Source of the DNA: Hyphomicrobiales bacterium | Lineage (GTDB): Bacteria; Pseudomonadota; Alphaproteobacteria; Rhizobiales; Xanthobacteraceae | NCBI GenBank assembly: GCA_003169835.1 | Contig: PNAI01000028.1 | Location: 1 to 64,000 of the forward strand | Direction of reading: 5' to 3' | Length of the DNA: 64,000 nucleotides | Shown here: positions 38,996-46,892 of the stretch, piece by piece | Layout: each line of letters starts with the position of its first letter | How positions within the stretch are numbered: position 1 is the first letter of the stretch | Program-made: the position numbers and the translations under genes | The notes under the pieces: generated by a model | Seen by the model: only the letters and a program-made list of their open reading frames with translations | Told to the model about the DNA's origin: nothing | Database searches by the model: none

Positions 38996-40057
38996 ATGCA
39001 TGAAGCTATCAACCACGCCAAGTTGGCGATGTTGTTCCGCAAGGAATATCAGCTCTGCAACGTGCAGAAGGGCGAAACGATTGTTCTCTTGAGTGACCTT
39101 GGCGCGCGGCGGGACTACGTTGCCGCGGCGTTCGCGGCCGCGGAGGACCTCAGCGCAGACGCCTACGAGATGTGCGTCAATGCCATGCCATCCTGGACAA
39201 AGGTCGGCGTGGAAACCATCGGTCGGTGCAAGGGCACGCTCGAAGCGATCAAGTCTGCCGACATGCTGGTCTGTCTCCACATCCCACTGTTCACGCGCTG
39301 GCTCAAGGATGCGCGCGCGGCCGGCACGCGCGTGCTGATGGTGATCGACGGCCCCGACGAGCTCGAGGAGCTGATGGCGCCGCCTGGACTCAAAGAGGCG
39401 GTCGACTATGCCGGCCAGCGGCTCGATCGGGCGAAGTCAATGCGCATAACGCGACCGGGAGGTACTGATCTCACGGTGAAGCTCGGCGAATACCCGACAA
39501 TGATTCAATACGGCTACGCCGAGTCCACGGGCCGCTTCGATCATTGGGGCGCAGGTCACGTGCATACATTTCCGAACGAGGGATCTGCAACGGGCACGGT
39601 TGTTTTCCAACCCGGCGACATAATCGTTCTTCCCTACTGCCGTTACGTGCAAGACGAAGTGCGACTCGACATCCGCGAAGGATCTATCCGCAAGATCGAG
39701 GGTGGTCTCGACGCCAAGCTGATGAGCGATTGGCTGGACGGCAACCGCGCCAATGCAGATGATTTGGACGGTCACGCCATCTCACATCTGGGATGGGGTC
39801 TCAACCCGCAGGGTCGTTGGGATGCGATCGCGCTCAACGGCGCGGATCCCAAGCGCCACCACGCCGGCGCACGATGCTTCGCCGGAAATTTCTTATTTTC
39901 GACCGGGCCCAATTCGCAGGGCGGCGGCAAGCGCACGACCAAGGGACATTATGATGTGCCGATGCGCGATTGCACTGTGACGCTCGACAATGATGTGATC
40001 ATCGAACGTGGCAATTTTGCCGACGAAAAGATGCGTGTAGCACGTGTTGCCCGCTAA
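38996..40057 (+). CDS. 2,5-dihydroxypyridine 5,6-dioxygenase (NicX)-like protein
   Basis: A 353-residue protein of the NicX/M29-aminopeptidase-like fold. Its metal site matches the one reported, to my recollection, for Pseudomonas putida NicX (His265, His318, Asp320): here His264 (SHLGWG), His318 and Asp320 (GHYDVP). NicX opens the ring of 2,5-dihydroxypyridine to N-formylmaleamate using Fe(II) and O2. It heads a run of genes for an ABC importer, a cupin dioxygenase and a Mo hydroxylase. Many such homologues are misnamed leucyl aminopeptidase. Ring opening is well supported; the precise hydroxypyridine is not certain. GGGAGG lies before the ATG. Confidence 0.8.
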   Translation: MHEAINHAKLAMLFRKEYQLCNVQKGETIVLLSDLGARRDYVAAAFAAAEDLSADAYEMCVNAMPSWTKVGVETIGRCKGTLEAIKSADMLVCLHIPLFTRWLKDARAAGTRVLMVIDGPDELEELMAPPGLKEAVDYAGQRLDRAKSMRITRPGGTDLTVKLGEYPTMIQYGYAESTGRFDHWGAGHVHTFPNEGSATGTVVFQPGDIIVLPYCRYVQDEVRLDIREGSIRKIEGGLDAKLMSDWLDGNRANADDLDGHAISHLGWGLNPQGRWDAIALNGADPKRHHAGARCFAGNFLFSTGPNSQGGGKRTTKGHYDVPMRDCTVTLDNDVIIERGNFADEKMRVARVAR

Positions 40058-40083: not shown

Positions 40084-41550
40084 ATGACCCATTCGGCGGC
40101 GAGCGCCAAAGGCGTAAGCAAGCGGTTCGGCGCGACGTGCGCTCTGGACGGTGTCGATTTTGACGTAAGGTCAGGTGAGATCCATGCGCTGGTCGGCGAG
40201 AATGGCGCCGGAAAATCAACGCTGGTGCGCCTGCTCGGCGGCGTGCATCGCCCGGACCAGGGCGAGATCACGGTTGACGGTCATCTGCGCCGGTTTGCGA
40301 ATCCGCATGACGCGATTTCGGCTGGTATTGCCACCATTCCGCAAGAACTGCGTTTGGTCCCTGCTCTGTCGATTGCCGAAAACATTGCGCTTGGCGATCC
40401 CCCGCTACGGCGCCTGCTTGGATTTCCGATCATCGACCGAGGGCGCATGCGCGAGGAAGCGCGCACGCAACTTGGACAACTCGAATTTATCCCCGACGTC
40501 GATCTCCTCGTTGACCAATTGACCTTTGCCGAGCGTCAGCTCATCGCAATCGCCAAAGCGCTGCGCAAACGTTGCCGGCTTCTGATCCTCGATGAGCCGA
40601 CTGCGGCACTTGAGACGCGTGAAATCGAGCGCTTGTTCGCCGTGCTCGATCGCATGAAACGGCAGGGTACCGCCATCATATACGTGTCACATCGGCTCGA
40701 TGAGATCGTAGCACTCGCTGATCGTTGCACCGTGCTGCGTGACGGCCACGTGGCCGCGGTGAGCCAGCGCGGCGAATTTAGTGCCGCTGACCTGGTACAA
40801 GCCATGACCGGCCGCGCTGCGGCGGATTTTGCGATCGAAATTAATCCACACGGCAACACGCTGCTCGAAGACATCGAAGAGCGTGCCGATCCCATTCGTC
40901 TGCGGGCGAACGAAATTGTAGGACTCGCAGGCTTGCTTGGAAGTGGCACCAATCGCGTGCTGCAGCGGCTGTTCGGAGTTGGGGGCACGCGCAGTGTCGT
41001 GCGCGTGAACGGTGAGCGGCGCCTCCTCGCCAATCCGATCGACGCCATCCGCGCAGGGATCGGCATGGTGCCCGGCGAACGCCGGCTCGGTCTGATCATG
41101 AATTTGTCAGTACGTGAAAATATCATATTGCCCAGCCTGGATCGGCTTGCCGTCGGCTGCATTTTGAACCGTGCTGCCGGCGATCAGTTGGTCGCGCAGC
41201 TCATGGATCTCCTAGATGTTCGGCCACGCCGGCCGGAGCTGCCAACCTCGGCGCTCTCCGGCGGCAATCAGCAGAAAGTAATCCTCGCCAAATGGTTGGC
41301 GCGCCAGGTTGGCGTGCTCCTTCTGGACGAGCCGACGCAGGGTGTGGACGTGGGTGCGAAAGCACAAATCCACGCGCTCATTCGCGACTTCGCACGCAAG
41401 GGCGGGGGCGTACTAGTCGGCTCGAGCGATTTGTCCGAACTTGCGCGACTTGCGGACGGCGTTCTCGCGATGCGCCAGGGTAGCGTCACGCAACGAATTG
41501 AGCGCGGCGAACTCAATGAAAATCGGCTGCACGCGGCAATCGACGGATGA
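40084..41550 (+). CDS. Sugar-type (RbsA-like) ABC transporter ATP-binding protein
   Basis: A 488-residue protein with two ABC domains in tandem. The first has Walker A GENGAGKST, LTFAERQLIAIAKAL signature and LILDEPTAAL; the second has a degenerate A-loop (AGLLGSGTNR), signature LSGGNQQKVILAKWL and LLLDEPTQGVD. This asymmetry is normal for the RbsA/MglA group. It energises the permease and receptor encoded next, with which it overlaps by ATGA. In this context the cargo is more likely an aromatic or heterocyclic compound than a sugar, which is inference. A GGAGG site precedes the ATG. Confidence 0.92.
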   Translation: MTHSAASAKGVSKRFGATCALDGVDFDVRSGEIHALVGENGAGKSTLVRLLGGVHRPDQGEITVDGHLRRFANPHDAISAGIATIPQELRLVPALSIAENIALGDPPLRRLLGFPIIDRGRMREEARTQLGQLEFIPDVDLLVDQLTFAERQLIAIAKALRKRCRLLILDEPTAALETREIERLFAVLDRMKRQGTAIIYVSHRLDEIVALADRCTVLRDGHVAAVSQRGEFSAADLVQAMTGRAAADFAIEINPHGNTLLEDIEERADPIRLRANEIVGLAGLLGSGTNRVLQRLFGVGGTRSVVRVNGERRLLANPIDAIRAGIGMVPGERRLGLIMNLSVRENIILPSLDRLAVGCILNRAAGDQLVAQLMDLLDVRPRRPELPTSALSGGNQQKVILAKWLARQVGVLLLDEPTQGVDVGAKAQIHALIRDFARKGGGVLVGSSDLSELARLADGVLAMRQGSVTQRIERGELNENRLHAAIDG

Positions 41551-42494
41551 TCATGCCGCCATTTCTCAAACGCTGGAATGTCGCCGGCCAAGTGCCGTTG
41601 ATCACCCTGATCCTACTTTGCCTTTTCACCGCATTGATGACGGATCGCTTCCTTTCACCGCTAAATCTCACCAACATACTCGTGCAATCCTCGATCATGG
41701 CGGTGATCGCCATCGGCATGACCTTCGTGATCATCGGCGGGGGCTTCGACCTTTCGGTCGGCTCGACGGTTGCCTTTGCGGGCTGCGTCGCGGCCATGGT
41801 GATAGTAAAATTCGGCATCGTCGTCGGTGTGCTCGCAGGTATTCTGTCCGGCGCCGCGATTGGGTTCGCAAACGGTCTGATCATCGCCAAGCTCGGCGTC
41901 AATCCGTTCATCACCACGCTAGGCACAATGGTCCTGGTGCGCGGCTTGGTTTATCTGATCACCGGAGGCGCGCCGGTCGGCGACGATGGAATGCCTTCCG
42001 CTTTCATCGCCTTCGGCTCCGCCCGCTTCCTCGGAGTGCATTATCTAGTCTGGGTTCCTGCGGTCCTGGTCGTGGTTTTGTCGTTCGTGATGCACATGAC
42101 GCCCTATGGACGCCGCATCTATGCCACCGGTGGCAACCGAGAAGCCGCCTATTTGTCCGGTGTGGCGGTTGAGCGCGTCATCGCATCTACCTATGTGTGG
42201 TGCGGAGCGCTTGCTGGCATCGCTGGCGTCATGCTCGCCGCCCGCCTGCAGTCCGGCCAGCCCACGGCCGGCGAATTTTATGAGCTCACGGCGATCGCGG
42301 CGGTGGTACTTGGTGGCGCCGCCCTGCATGGCGGCGAAGGTACGCTTTACAAGAGCATCATTGGTGTTTTCATCATGATCGTACTGGGCAATAGCCTTAA
42401 TCTGCTCAATGTCGACTCCTACTGGCAGCGGGTTGCCGTTGGCGCGATCATCATTGCCGCCGCGGCAGCAGATCGGTTACGCTTACGCCGTTGA
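41547..42494 (+). CDS. RbsC-like ABC transporter permease
   Basis: A 315-residue inner-membrane permease with about eight to ten helices and the BPD_transp_2 fold: TFVIIGGGFDLSVGSTVAF is the diagnostic stretch, followed by GVNPFITTLGTMVLVRG and LGGAALHGGEGT. It forms the channel for the RbsA-like ATPase. The ATG overlaps the ATPase stop by 4 bases. The receptor gene follows after 17 bases. Confidence 0.93.
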   Translation: MIMPPFLKRWNVAGQVPLITLILLCLFTALMTDRFLSPLNLTNILVQSSIMAVIAIGMTFVIIGGGFDLSVGSTVAFAGCVAAMVIVKFGIVVGVLAGILSGAAIGFANGLIIAKLGVNPFITTLGTMVLVRGLVYLITGGAPVGDDGMPSAFIAFGSARFLGVHYLVWVPAVLVVVLSFVMHMTPYGRRIYATGGNREAAYLSGVAVERVIASTYVWCGALAGIAGVMLAARLQSGQPTAGEFYELTAIAAVVLGGAALHGGEGTLYKSIIGVFIMIVLGNSLNLLNVDSYWQRVAVGAIIIAAAAADRLRLRR

Positions 42495-43455: not shown

Positions 43456-44487
43456 ATGCAACATCCGACGCCCAAGGTGAAGTCGGAGTCGGATTTTGTC
43501 GCGCAGCTTGAGGCGTCCAACCTGCATCCGCTGTGGGACCGCTTTCGAACGCTCACGCCTGTCAAGCCGCAGGCCAAAGATCCGCCGCTGCTGTGGCGCT
43601 GGAAAGATATCGAGCGTTTTACCGAACGCGCAGTCAGAGAAGCGGCAATTGACGACGTCGAGCGCCGCGCGTTGATCCTGGTCAACCCAGCTTTCGGTGG
43701 CGAGACGGTGACGACCTCGAACTTGATCGCAGCTTTCACGGTGCTTGATCCCGGCGATCGGGCGCGGCCGCATCGGCACACATTCGCAGCAATCCGTTTT
43801 GCCACGCACGCGGAAGGCGCCGCCACGATCGTCAATGGCCGCCGTTGCGAAATGCACGAAGGCGATCTGATTCTTACGCCTCCTATGTGCTGGCATGGTC
43901 ATATCAACGAGAGCGACCACCGCATTGTCTGGTTCGATGCGGCAAACATCCCGTTGATCCGCGGCCTCGACGCCAATTTCTTCGAACCGGGCGACCCGAA
44001 GGCCAATCAGTTTTGGCAGGTGGACGAAGGCGACGAAAAGCTCTGGACTGAGCCCGGCATCGTCGGCGCTGATATCCAGCACGCGCCTGTGCATTCGCCG
44101 AAGTACCGCTACGCGGGCGACGCGACCCGCCGCCTGTTGGCGGCACTCCCGTCTGGTCCCGATGGCGCACGCACCGTGCGCTACACCAACCCGACGACGG
44201 GCGAAGCCGTCATGCCGGCGCTGGACCTTTATATGTCCCGTCTGCCCAAGGCCCAGGCGACTCGGCCGAAGCGCACCACCTGCAACATGATTTGTCTCGT
44301 CGTCTCCGGAGAGGGCAGTTCAACCGTCGGCGAGCATACGTTTGAATGGTCGCAGCACGACGTATTTTCGATTCCTCATTGGACCTGGGCCAGCCACAAA
44401 GCGATCGGCAGCAACGCCGATCTCTTTATCGTGACCGACAAATCGGCGTTCGAACGGCTCGATCTTCTGCGCGAGGAATTGCAATAA
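43456..44487 (+). CDS. Gentisate 1,2-dioxygenase-like bicupin protein
   Basis: A 343-residue double cupin. The first cupin has metal ligands His106 and His108 (RPHRHTFAAIRF) and a later His in MCWHGH (147-149), as in gentisate and 1-hydroxy-2-naphthoate dioxygenases. The second cupin (about residues 240-335) has GEGSSTVGEHTFEWSQHDVFSIPHW (given in part) and lacks a clear full ligand set, again as in that family. It should cleave a hydroxylated ring using Fe(II); the substrate is not certain. It follows the ABC receptor by 8 bases, and its stop overlaps the apparent start of the Mo hydroxylase. Confidence 0.82.
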   Translation: MQHPTPKVKSESDFVAQLEASNLHPLWDRFRTLTPVKPQAKDPPLLWRWKDIERFTERAVREAAIDDVERRALILVNPAFGGETVTTSNLIAAFTVLDPGDRARPHRHTFAAIRFATHAEGAATIVNGRRCEMHEGDLILTPPMCWHGHINESDHRIVWFDAANIPLIRGLDANFFEPGDPKANQFWQVDEGDEKLWTEPGIVGADIQHAPVHSPKYRYAGDATRRLLAALPSGPDGARTVRYTNPTTGEAVMPALDLYMSRLPKAQATRPKRTTCNMICLVVSGEGSSTVGEHTFEWSQHDVFSIPHWTWASHKAIGSNADLFIVTDKSAFERLDLLREELQ

Positions 44488-46892
44488 GCACGCCCGCTGA
44501 GAAGCACGAAGGCATCGGCGCATCAGTTCGGCGCGTCGAAGATCCGAAATTTTTGCGCGGTGGCGGAATTTTTGTTGCCGACATAACCCTTCCCGAAGAA
44601 TTGCATTGTGTTCTGGTTCGCTCGCCGCACGCCCACGCCCGCATCGCGAAAATTGATGCGGCGCTGGCATCGCAGATGCCCGGCGTGGTCACGATATTCA
44701 CCGGCGCCGACATGGCCGCAGACAATGTCGGGCCCATGGCTCCCTTGTGGGCGATCAAGTCGGCAGACGGCAAGCCGATGGCGGAGCCGCCACGCTGGGC
44801 TCTCTCGCGCGATCGGGTCCGCCATGTCGGTGAAGCCTTGACCGCGGTCGTTGCCGAAACACGCGAACAGGCACAGGAAGCCGCGGAAAAGGTGCAGGTC
44901 GAATACGAGCCTCTGCCGGTCGTGGTCGATGGCCGCGCGGCGCTAATGAAAGGTGCGCCGCAGCTGCACGACGCCGCGCCAGGCAACGTATGTTTCCGCT
45001 TCGCGCGCGGCGATGAGAGTGCGGTCAACAAGGTCTTTGAGCAGGCCCCGCATATTGTACGTCTCGACCTCGTCAATAATCGTCTCATCGGCGCGGCGCT
45101 TGAGCCGCGTGCCGTGCTTGCGGTCGGCGAGTCTGTTGGCGATCGGCTGACGCTCTATAGCGCGACGCAGGTACCACATCACATCCGCCGCGTTGTCAGC
45201 GAGCAGCTCGGCATGCCGGTCAACGGCATTCGTCTGATTGCGCCAGATGTCGGTGGTGGTTTCGGTTACAAAGGCAAGCACTATCCAGAGGAGACGATAA
45301 TCGCCTGGGCTGCGCGAAAATTGCGGCGCCCTGTGAAATGGGTCGCCACTCGCAACGAATGTTTTGTGTCCGACAACCAAGGGCGCGATCACCTCACCCA
45401 TGCGGAACTCGCGATCGACGCGGGGGGGCATTTTCTTGCGCTGCGCGTCGAGACAATTGCAAATCTCGGCGCCTATGTATCAACTTTCGGCGCCGCCATT
45501 CCAAGCGCGATCTATAGTGCACTCTTGGCTGGCGTGTACCGCACGCCGGCCATCGCCGTGCAGTCAACCGGCGTGTTCACCAATACACTGCCGACCGACG
45601 CTTATCGCGGCGCCGGCCGGCCGGAGGCCTGTTACGTGCTCGAACGCCTTGCGGATGAGGTCGCGCGCAAGCTCGGCCTCGACCGCGCGGAGATACGGCG
45701 GCGTAATCTCGTGCCAGTGGAGGCTATGCCTTATAAAACACCAATCGGGCCCACCTACGATTGCGGTAATTTCCCAAAAGTCTTCGCGCGCGTGCTCGAT
45801 GTCTCCGATTATAAGGGTTTCGAGAAGCGTCGCTCAGCCGCCGCGCGCGCAGGCAGACGGCGCGGGATAGGCATGGCGTGCTATGTCGAGTCCTCTGGCA
45901 TTGCGCCGTCGCGCTTCGCCACCAGCCTTGGTGCACGCGTCGGCTTCTTCGAGGCCGCCTCGATCCGGATGCAGCCCGACGGTAGCGTGCAAGCAATGCT
46001 CGGGACACACAGTCACGGTCAAGGCCACGCCACAACCTTTGCTCAGATTATCGCCTCGCGCCTAGGTGTGCCGGTGGCTGCGGTGCAAATAGTCGAGGGC
46101 GATACCGATCAGGTGCCGTTCGGCACTGGCACTTTCGGCTCTCGCTCGATTGCGGTCGGTGGGTCAGCGCTCGACTGCGCGGCTATGAAAATCATTGCCA
46201 AAGGTAAGCTGATTGCCGCGCACCTGATGGAAGCATCCGCGGCGGACATTACCTTTACCGGAGGCCGCTTCGCCGTCGCCGGTACCGACCGGCGCGTGAG
46301 CCTGCGTGAGGTTGCGCGAGCAGCCTACATTCCCACCAGTTACCCAACTGATCTTGAGCTCGGCCTTCAGGACACCGCAGTGTACGACCCGCCGACATTC
46401 GCCTGGAGCAACGGGGCGCATGTCTGTGAGGTCGAGGTCGATATCGATACTGGCGAGGTACGTGTTGTCAATTATTGGGCTGTGGACGATGTCGGCACAG
46501 TGATCAATCCGATGATTGTCGAAGGCCAGATTCAAGGTGGTGTCGCGCAGGGTCTCGGGCAGGCGCTGCTCGAGCATTGCGTCTACGATCCGGTGAGCGG
46601 GCAATTGTTGGTCGGCTCGTTCATGGATTACGCGATCCCGCGTGCCGATGACATGCCAGCCATGGTGTCTGAACTCGATGAGAGTCAGCCTTGCACGCAC
46701 AATCCGCTTGGCGCTAAAGGCTGCGGTGAAGCGGGATCGATTGGTGCACCGGCGGCAATTGTTGGCGCGGTGCTCGATGCCCTCAGCCCGCTGGATGTCA
46801 CCGACATAGAGTTGCCGCTCACCCCGGCGCGTGTGTGGGCGGCGATCTGGTCGGCAAGAAGGGTGGAAAGGGTGGAATCAGCGCCAGGGTGA
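44484..46892 (+). CDS. Molybdenum hydroxylase large subunit (xanthine dehydrogenase/CoxL family)
   Basis: About 802 residues. Moco-binding loops are visible: GGGFGYKG near residue 256, AYRGAGRPEA near 372, GQGHATTFAQ near 511 and GAKGCGEAG near 742 with the catalytic Glu. It would hydroxylate an N-heterocycle or oxidise an aldehyde. No in-frame ATG/GTG/TTG lies at the domain start. ATA at 44484 overlaps the cupin stop, sits 5 bases after GAGGAA, and gives ISTPAEKHEGIGAS, matching family N-termini; ATG 44346 would require a 142-base overlap. No FAD or 2Fe-2S subunit gene is adjacent, which is unusual. Confidence 0.88.
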   Translation: MSTPAEKHEGIGASVRRVEDPKFLRGGGIFVADITLPEELHCVLVRSPHAHARIAKIDAALASQMPGVVTIFTGADMAADNVGPMAPLWAIKSADGKPMAEPPRWALSRDRVRHVGEALTAVVAETREQAQEAAEKVQVEYEPLPVVVDGRAALMKGAPQLHDAAPGNVCFRFARGDESAVNKVFEQAPHIVRLDLVNNRLIGAALEPRAVLAVGESVGDRLTLYSATQVPHHIRRVVSEQLGMPVNGIRLIAPDVGGGFGYKGKHYPEETIIAWAARKLRRPVKWVATRNECFVSDNQGRDHLTHAELAIDAGGHFLALRVETIANLGAYVSTFGAAIPSAIYSALLAGVYRTPAIAVQSTGVFTNTLPTDAYRGAGRPEACYVLERLADEVARKLGLDRAEIRRRNLVPVEAMPYKTPIGPTYDCGNFPKVFARVLDVSDYKGFEKRRSAAARAGRRRGIGMACYVESSGIAPSRFATSLGARVGFFEAASIRMQPDGSVQAMLGTHSHGQGHATTFAQIIASRLGVPVAAVQIVEGDTDQVPFGTGTFGSRSIAVGGSALDCAAMKIIAKGKLIAAHLMEASAADITFTGGRFAVAGTDRRVSLREVARAAYIPTSYPTDLELGLQDTAVYDPPTFAWSNGAHVCEVEVDIDTGEVRVVNYWAVDDVGTVINPMIVEGQIQGGVAQGLGQALLEHCVYDPVSGQLLVGSFMDYAIPRADDMPAMVSELDESQPCTHNPLGAKGCGEAGSIGAPAAIVGAVLDALSPLDVTDIELPLTPARVWAAIWSARRVERVESAPG

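Follow-up and report, generated by a model that had tools for sequence, protein, structure and literature searches.

The locus considered here raises the question of how translation begins on a gene for a molybdenum (Mo) hydroxylase, the reading frame of which runs into the stop codon of an upstream cupin gene at an ATA triplet. A preliminary description of the window, i.e. the whole 64,000-nucleotide stretch of Hyphomicrobiales DNA that was analyzed, reported an in-frame ATA of the Mo hydroxylase at the end of the cupin gene, GAGGAA 5 bases before it and no ATG, GTG or TTG in frame nearby, and these points are borne out (Table 1). The junction reads CAATAAGC at 44482-44489, with the cupin codons CAA TAA at 44482-44487, and TTGCA separates GAGGAA from the ATA. 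If the ATA initiates, the downstream start and the upstream stop have four nucleotides in common, ATAA (44484-44487), forming a -4 overlap; the Mo hydroxylase frame is -1 relative to the cupin frame, and it is open across the cupin stop. The canonical in-frame codons around the ATA in the window are an ATG at codon -46, a TTG at codon -35 (44379) and a TTG at codon +23 that falls within the conserved domain, with none between codons -35 and +23; a mechanical ORF call places the start at the ATG. Four-nucleotide overlaps elsewhere in the same operon, which the preliminary description had also mentioned, are present as ATGA at 41547-41550 and, additionally, as TTGA at 42491-42494 (ORF coordinates).

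Table 1. Features of the cupin-Mo hydroxylase junction, in window coordinates.
Feature	Position	Strand	Details
Cupin gene (gentisate 1,2-dioxygenase-like)	43456..44487	+	Tail ...CGC GAG GAA TTG CAA TAA
Shine-Dalgarno GAGGAA	44473..44478	+	Within final cupin codons; predicted duplex -5.9 kcal/mol
Proposed ATA start of the Mo hydroxylase	44484..44486	+	In frame in the window, likewise in 7 distinct relatives
Cupin stop TAA, common to the proposed start	44485..44487	+	ORF reading
Large subunit of the Mo hydroxylase (802 codons, counted from the ATA)	44484..46892	+	Domains, PDB matches, dN/dS
Sole upstream in-frame ATG	44346..44348	+	Within the cupin gene; likely a mis-annotated start

The cupin matches TIGR02272 (8e-71, below the curated cut-off), and its PDB matches are gentisate dioxygenases. 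The downstream gene, with its MoCoBD_1, MoCoBD_2 and Ald_Xan_dh_C domains, encodes a xanthine oxidase-family large subunit; its best PDB relatives are the CoxL and quinoline 2-oxidoreductase large subunits, and it reaches no curated NCBIfam cut-off. The 13 NCBIfam matches to the Mo hydroxylase open at residues 3-175 (10 of them at 3-23), which makes the earlier claim that homology begins exactly at the ATA overstated; a conserved GIGxxxxRxED block opens 9 codons past the window ATA. In the nine best-scoring paralogs from the same genome a canonical in-frame codon lies 1-13 codons before the aligned block, and a start in the region of the ATA is therefore to be expected. The family is greatly expanded in this genome (G000, 3.3 Mb, 83% complete), where a search with the Mo hydroxylase gives 29 matches; 16, this gene among them, span nearly the whole query.

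The operon comprises a 2,5-dihydroxypyridine 5,6-dioxygenase relative, a sugar-type ABC transporter, the cupin and the Mo hydroxylase. The first of these (38996-40057) has a PDB match to 2,5-dihydroxypyridine 5,6-dioxygenase (7cn3, 2.8e-60), and neither a Pfam match (E up to 1e-5) nor an NCBIfam model was found for it. Together with the Mo hydroxylase and the cupin, this match suggests that the operon may serve the degradation of a nitrogen heterocycle of the pyridine type. On reading the ORF lists, L041, L042 and L043 share much of this gene order, and L045 and L046 share parts of it; L046 has a second Mo hydroxylase large subunit-like ORF 4239-4995 nt past the cupin stop. Iron-sulphur or FAD partner genes were not noticed among the window neighbors examined or in the ORF lists of seven relatives.

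Relatives were sought by several routes. A contig scan with the cupin as query returned 35 loci, three of which were dropped (L072 and L074, with incomplete tails, and L075, 33% identical); a script found a Mo gene downstream in 22 of the 32 kept and not in the other 10; in L070 Mo-like sequence was recognized by eye. Of 391 genomes covered by a family search, 15 carry the cupin (E up to 1e-120), the window's own among them, and 10 of the 14 other loci were identified as duplicates, having the same sequence as contig-scan loci. Repeating the family search from a different center (14/390) added no locus, and the order search returned the window itself only (1/397); the window's genus is represented by its own genome only. 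In L054, for which the script found no plausible cupin stop, the cupin frame continues into Mo-hydroxylase-like sequence, through either an indel or a genuine fusion. A 60% identical cupin relative occurs in a MAG assigned to Klebsiella pneumoniae (L060), an assignment that looks doubtful.

An ATA over the cupin stop, in frame, is found in the window and in L041, L042, L043, L044, L045, L047 and L078, the seven relatives being distinct assemblies from two other genera of the family. The junction is ATAA in seven of these eight ATA-type loci and ATAG in L078, which comes from a single-contig 8.2 Mb genome; the N-terminus predicted from the ATA of this ATAG allele (genome G103, L078/L096) is (fMet-)DARAKIAGEGIGA. 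The shared in-frame ATA is a real feature. The preliminary description had left three readings, i.e. a sequencing error, a point mutation weakening expression, or initiation at ATA; recurrence of the same in-frame ATA in seven other distinct assemblies rejects the error and a mutation private to this strain, and the comparison best supports initiation at the ATA. It had also pointed to relatives as a place where an ATG might be seen, and here the outcome is divided: L012 (=L048) carries ATGA exactly at the ATA position, whereas the seven closer overlapping relatives do not. Elsewhere the junction takes other forms. It is GTGA in L067, L068 and L069; L013 (=L050) has the in-frame ATA over the stop but an ATG 3 codons on, and was counted apart; L046 (=L082) has an insert of ~200 bp with an in-frame stop, followed by its own GTG start; L049 (=L084) has TAG then GTG, and in other loci a separate start lies farther downstream. 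The cupin end CAATAA is also found in L070, where an ATG 13 nt on in another frame leads into EGIGA-like sequence (by eye), which indicates that the in-frame ATA relation does not follow automatically from a CAATAA end.

Shine-Dalgarno energies were calculated with the standard 16S tail assumed for all loci, a pattern for the organisms' own 16S 3' end having been found in G103 only (1/9 genomes). In all eight ATA loci GAGGA lies 5-6 nt before the ATA, with a pairing energy of -5.9 kcal/mol; the window has GAGGAA within the upstream gene at a suitable spacing (6 nt). The idea that a stronger Shine-Dalgarno compensates for the ATA gave a mixed result: pairing is weaker in the ATGA (-2.4) and GTGA (-1.5 to -2.9) relatives but stronger at the separate ATG starts of L053 (-9.4) and L056 (-11.3), and because of the latter a special compensation is not established.

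In the window, L041, L045 and L078, any canonical start ahead of the conserved block lies far within the cupin, and across species the usable region has none. L041 lacks an in-frame ATG, GTG or TTG over codons -51 to +36, and so does L045 between codon -24, where its upstream stop lies, and codon +43; L078 has a TTG at -46 and a GTG at +15, the latter within its GIGASVLRVED block. The start in L042, L043, L044 and L047 is ambiguous, since a canonical codon 6 codons past the ATA (ATG in L042, TTG in the other three) could initiate.

Taken together, these observations make it likely, as judged from sequence, that translation of the Mo hydroxylase begins at the AUA that overlaps the stop of the cupin. 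Two alternatives move the start elsewhere. Initiation at ATG 44346 (or TTG 44379) within the cupin gene, which would extend the protein by up to 46 residues, agrees with the mechanical ORF call and with the ATG being the sole upstream in-frame ATG in the window; however, its Shine-Dalgarno is weak (-2.8 kcal/mol at 10 nt, and -0.4 for the TTG), L041, L043, L045 and L047 have no canonical upstream start, and L012 carries its ATG at the ATA position, which leaves an upstream start very unlikely. We see an equally slight chance for another near-cognate codon, such as ATT 44478 or the codon at +17. The latter is ATG, TTG, ATT or ATC in six of the seven relatives, but AAG in the window and TCG in L045, and the six +17 codons tested (L041-L044, L047 and L078) are without a Shine-Dalgarno (0.1 to 1.9); ATT 44478 directly adjoins the Shine-Dalgarno (0 nt spacing). 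In L078 the GTG at codon 15 does show some pairing (-3.8), which counts against the ATA start.

Other alternatives concern the fate of the gene or the route into its frame. If the stop-codon change had destroyed the start, the Mo gene would be barely or not expressed and decaying; ATA is a weak start, and an aUAA coupling reporter lacking a Shine-Dalgarno gave no initiation in E. coli in the experiment reported (PMC9955659). The junction of that reporter is the identical AUAA, and its failure also counts against initiation at the ATA; the Shine-Dalgarno, present here and lacking there, is the obvious difference from the window (PMC9955659). Decay is nonetheless highly improbable: the Mo frames are full-length, at 793-802 codons in the seven loci uncut by a contig end, and the gene is under purifying selection, with dN/dS of 0.07-0.16 (6 pairs) between loci at Mo dS of 0.5-2.6 (0.5-1.4 for the cupin in compared pairs). 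Ribosomal frameshifting (-1) where the cupin ends, giving a cupin-Mo fusion, would fit the relation of the two frames and the Mo frame being open there, but reading the junctions by eye revealed no slippery heptamer or other supporting signal, L046 interposes its insert with an in-frame stop and a GTG of its own, and L012 has ATGA; we regard such a fusion as extremely improbable. Between the ATA and the GIG block the codon-position bias is weak, with 10/6/13 differences at positions 1/2/3 over five partly non-independent pairs, one of which has 4/4/4; this weakness counts against the ATA start.

Codon usage at the end of the cupin gene is consistent with constraint on the Shine-Dalgarno. Across the eight ATA-type loci, 25 of the 206 cupin columns with a conserved amino acid (Met and Trp excluded) use a single codon throughout. 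Of the final four cupin codons, three keep their amino acid, and each of these three (GAG, GAA and CAA) is the same codon in 8/8 loci despite the high synonymous divergence; they supply the Shine-Dalgarno and also the A with which the ATA begins. Invariant columns number 5 of 36 for Q/E/K in both genes and 16 of 136 for two-fold codons, and the 3/3 tail has a hypergeometric P of ~0.0014 in each comparison, both values being post hoc and treating columns as independent. Wholly invariant three-column windows among the amino-acid-conserved columns number 2 of 204, the cupin tail and one other. With L012, L013 and L046 added (11 loci), only one of 27 conserved Q/E/K columns ends in A throughout, and that is the final CAA. 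Counting against the ATA start, these final codons also specify amino acids of the cupin.

In a concatenated tree rooted on L067-L069, the ATGA locus L012 is sister to a nine-locus clade comprising the eight ATA loci and L046 (supports 62 and 58); support for the clade with the ATA loci is low (58). It is plausible that a single TGA-to-TAA change of the cupin stop turned ATG into ATA, which was then kept, and lost once via the insert. Such a stop swap would convert the downstream ATG to ATA with the cupin protein untouched, any exchange among TGA, TAA and TAG being silent there.

With respect to mechanism, we envisage that the ribosome ending the cupin at UAA would be held by GAGGAA beside the AUA, allowing termination-reinitiation, and that the initiator tRNA (CAU) would pair with the AUA with a third-base mismatch; Mo hydroxylase output would therefore be coupled to that of the cupin and fall below the level given by an AUG. 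In a search for an unusual initiator tRNA, an initial pattern matched in one of nine genomes, at a locus (L101) that contains no tRNA gene; a wider pattern matched in 8/8 genomes (G207 left out) at 12 places. Ten of these loci were scanned (all but L103 and L109), and six of the ten contain a tRNA-Met whose anticodon is CAT, one of them in the window's own genome (L105). A special AUA-reading initiator tRNA was not seen among these, the six putative initiator tRNA-Met having the ordinary CAT anticodon.

The infC gene represents a known type of weak start, and its form in these genomes favors the ATA reading. In nine genomes searched, all eight with infC (L088-L095, L091 being from the window's own genome) share an in-frame ATT whose position is conserved and which, judging by that position, is probably the infC start in these genomes; an in-frame ATG lies 4-17 codons past it in five of the eight, and canonical codons lie at least 25 codons upstream in two. 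A general count of non-canonical starts at -4 overlaps, using a GC3 filter, was too noisy to use and did not list the focal junction as lacking another start. By a crude count TGA is the commonest stop among the GC3-filtered ORFs (276/511, with 151 TAG and 84 TAA).

The proposed ATA start is related both to -4 overlaps and to AUA starts that have been described before, and differs from them in its ATAA/ATAG form. The -4 stop-start overlaps with termination-reinitiation described in PMC10666635 have the same geometry, frame relation and Shine-Dalgarno within the upstream gene; there ATGA and GTGA are the forms named, whereas here ATA is combined with a TAA or TAG stop. AUA starts have been described for Staphylococcus aureus infC and ccpN (conserved) and citZ (lineage-specific), where non-canonical sites give ~10% of AUG in poor medium and ccpN up to 30% in rich medium (PMC13009471). 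As here, a strong Shine-Dalgarno accompanies the AUA, but the phylum is different and that account, as far as it was available to us, describes no overlap with an upstream stop (PMC13009471). In Listeria, ATG-to-ATA start mutants of rsbW, which overlaps rsbV, retain reduced expression (PMC13068326). There too one base change alters a downstream start within an overlap, although, as described, those are rare mutants with a 17-bp overlap and an altered upstream protein (PMC13068326), whereas the ATA here is shared between genera and is silent upstream. A literature search for bacterial overlapping genes with an ATAA start/stop found nothing, an AUAA match concerning RNA cleavage.

We hypothesize that the AUA has been selected as an attenuator. 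More speculatively, and with more doubt than conviction, we suggest that the AUA may be kept on purpose, in that the choice of cupin stop (TAA/TAG versus TGA) would act as a protein-silent dial between a weak AUA and a strong AUG, the conserved Shine-Dalgarno keeping the AUA usable, and that the same trick may occur in other operons, hidden by annotation. The shared AUA at a stop-start overlap offers a natural test of Shine-Dalgarno rescue of AUA reinitiation, and bears on whether stop-codon choice tunes the next gene. Gene finders usually accept ATG, GTG and TTG, and genes with AUA starts are consequently cut short, extended or overlooked; a mechanical ORF call begins >100 nt late in L041 and L045.
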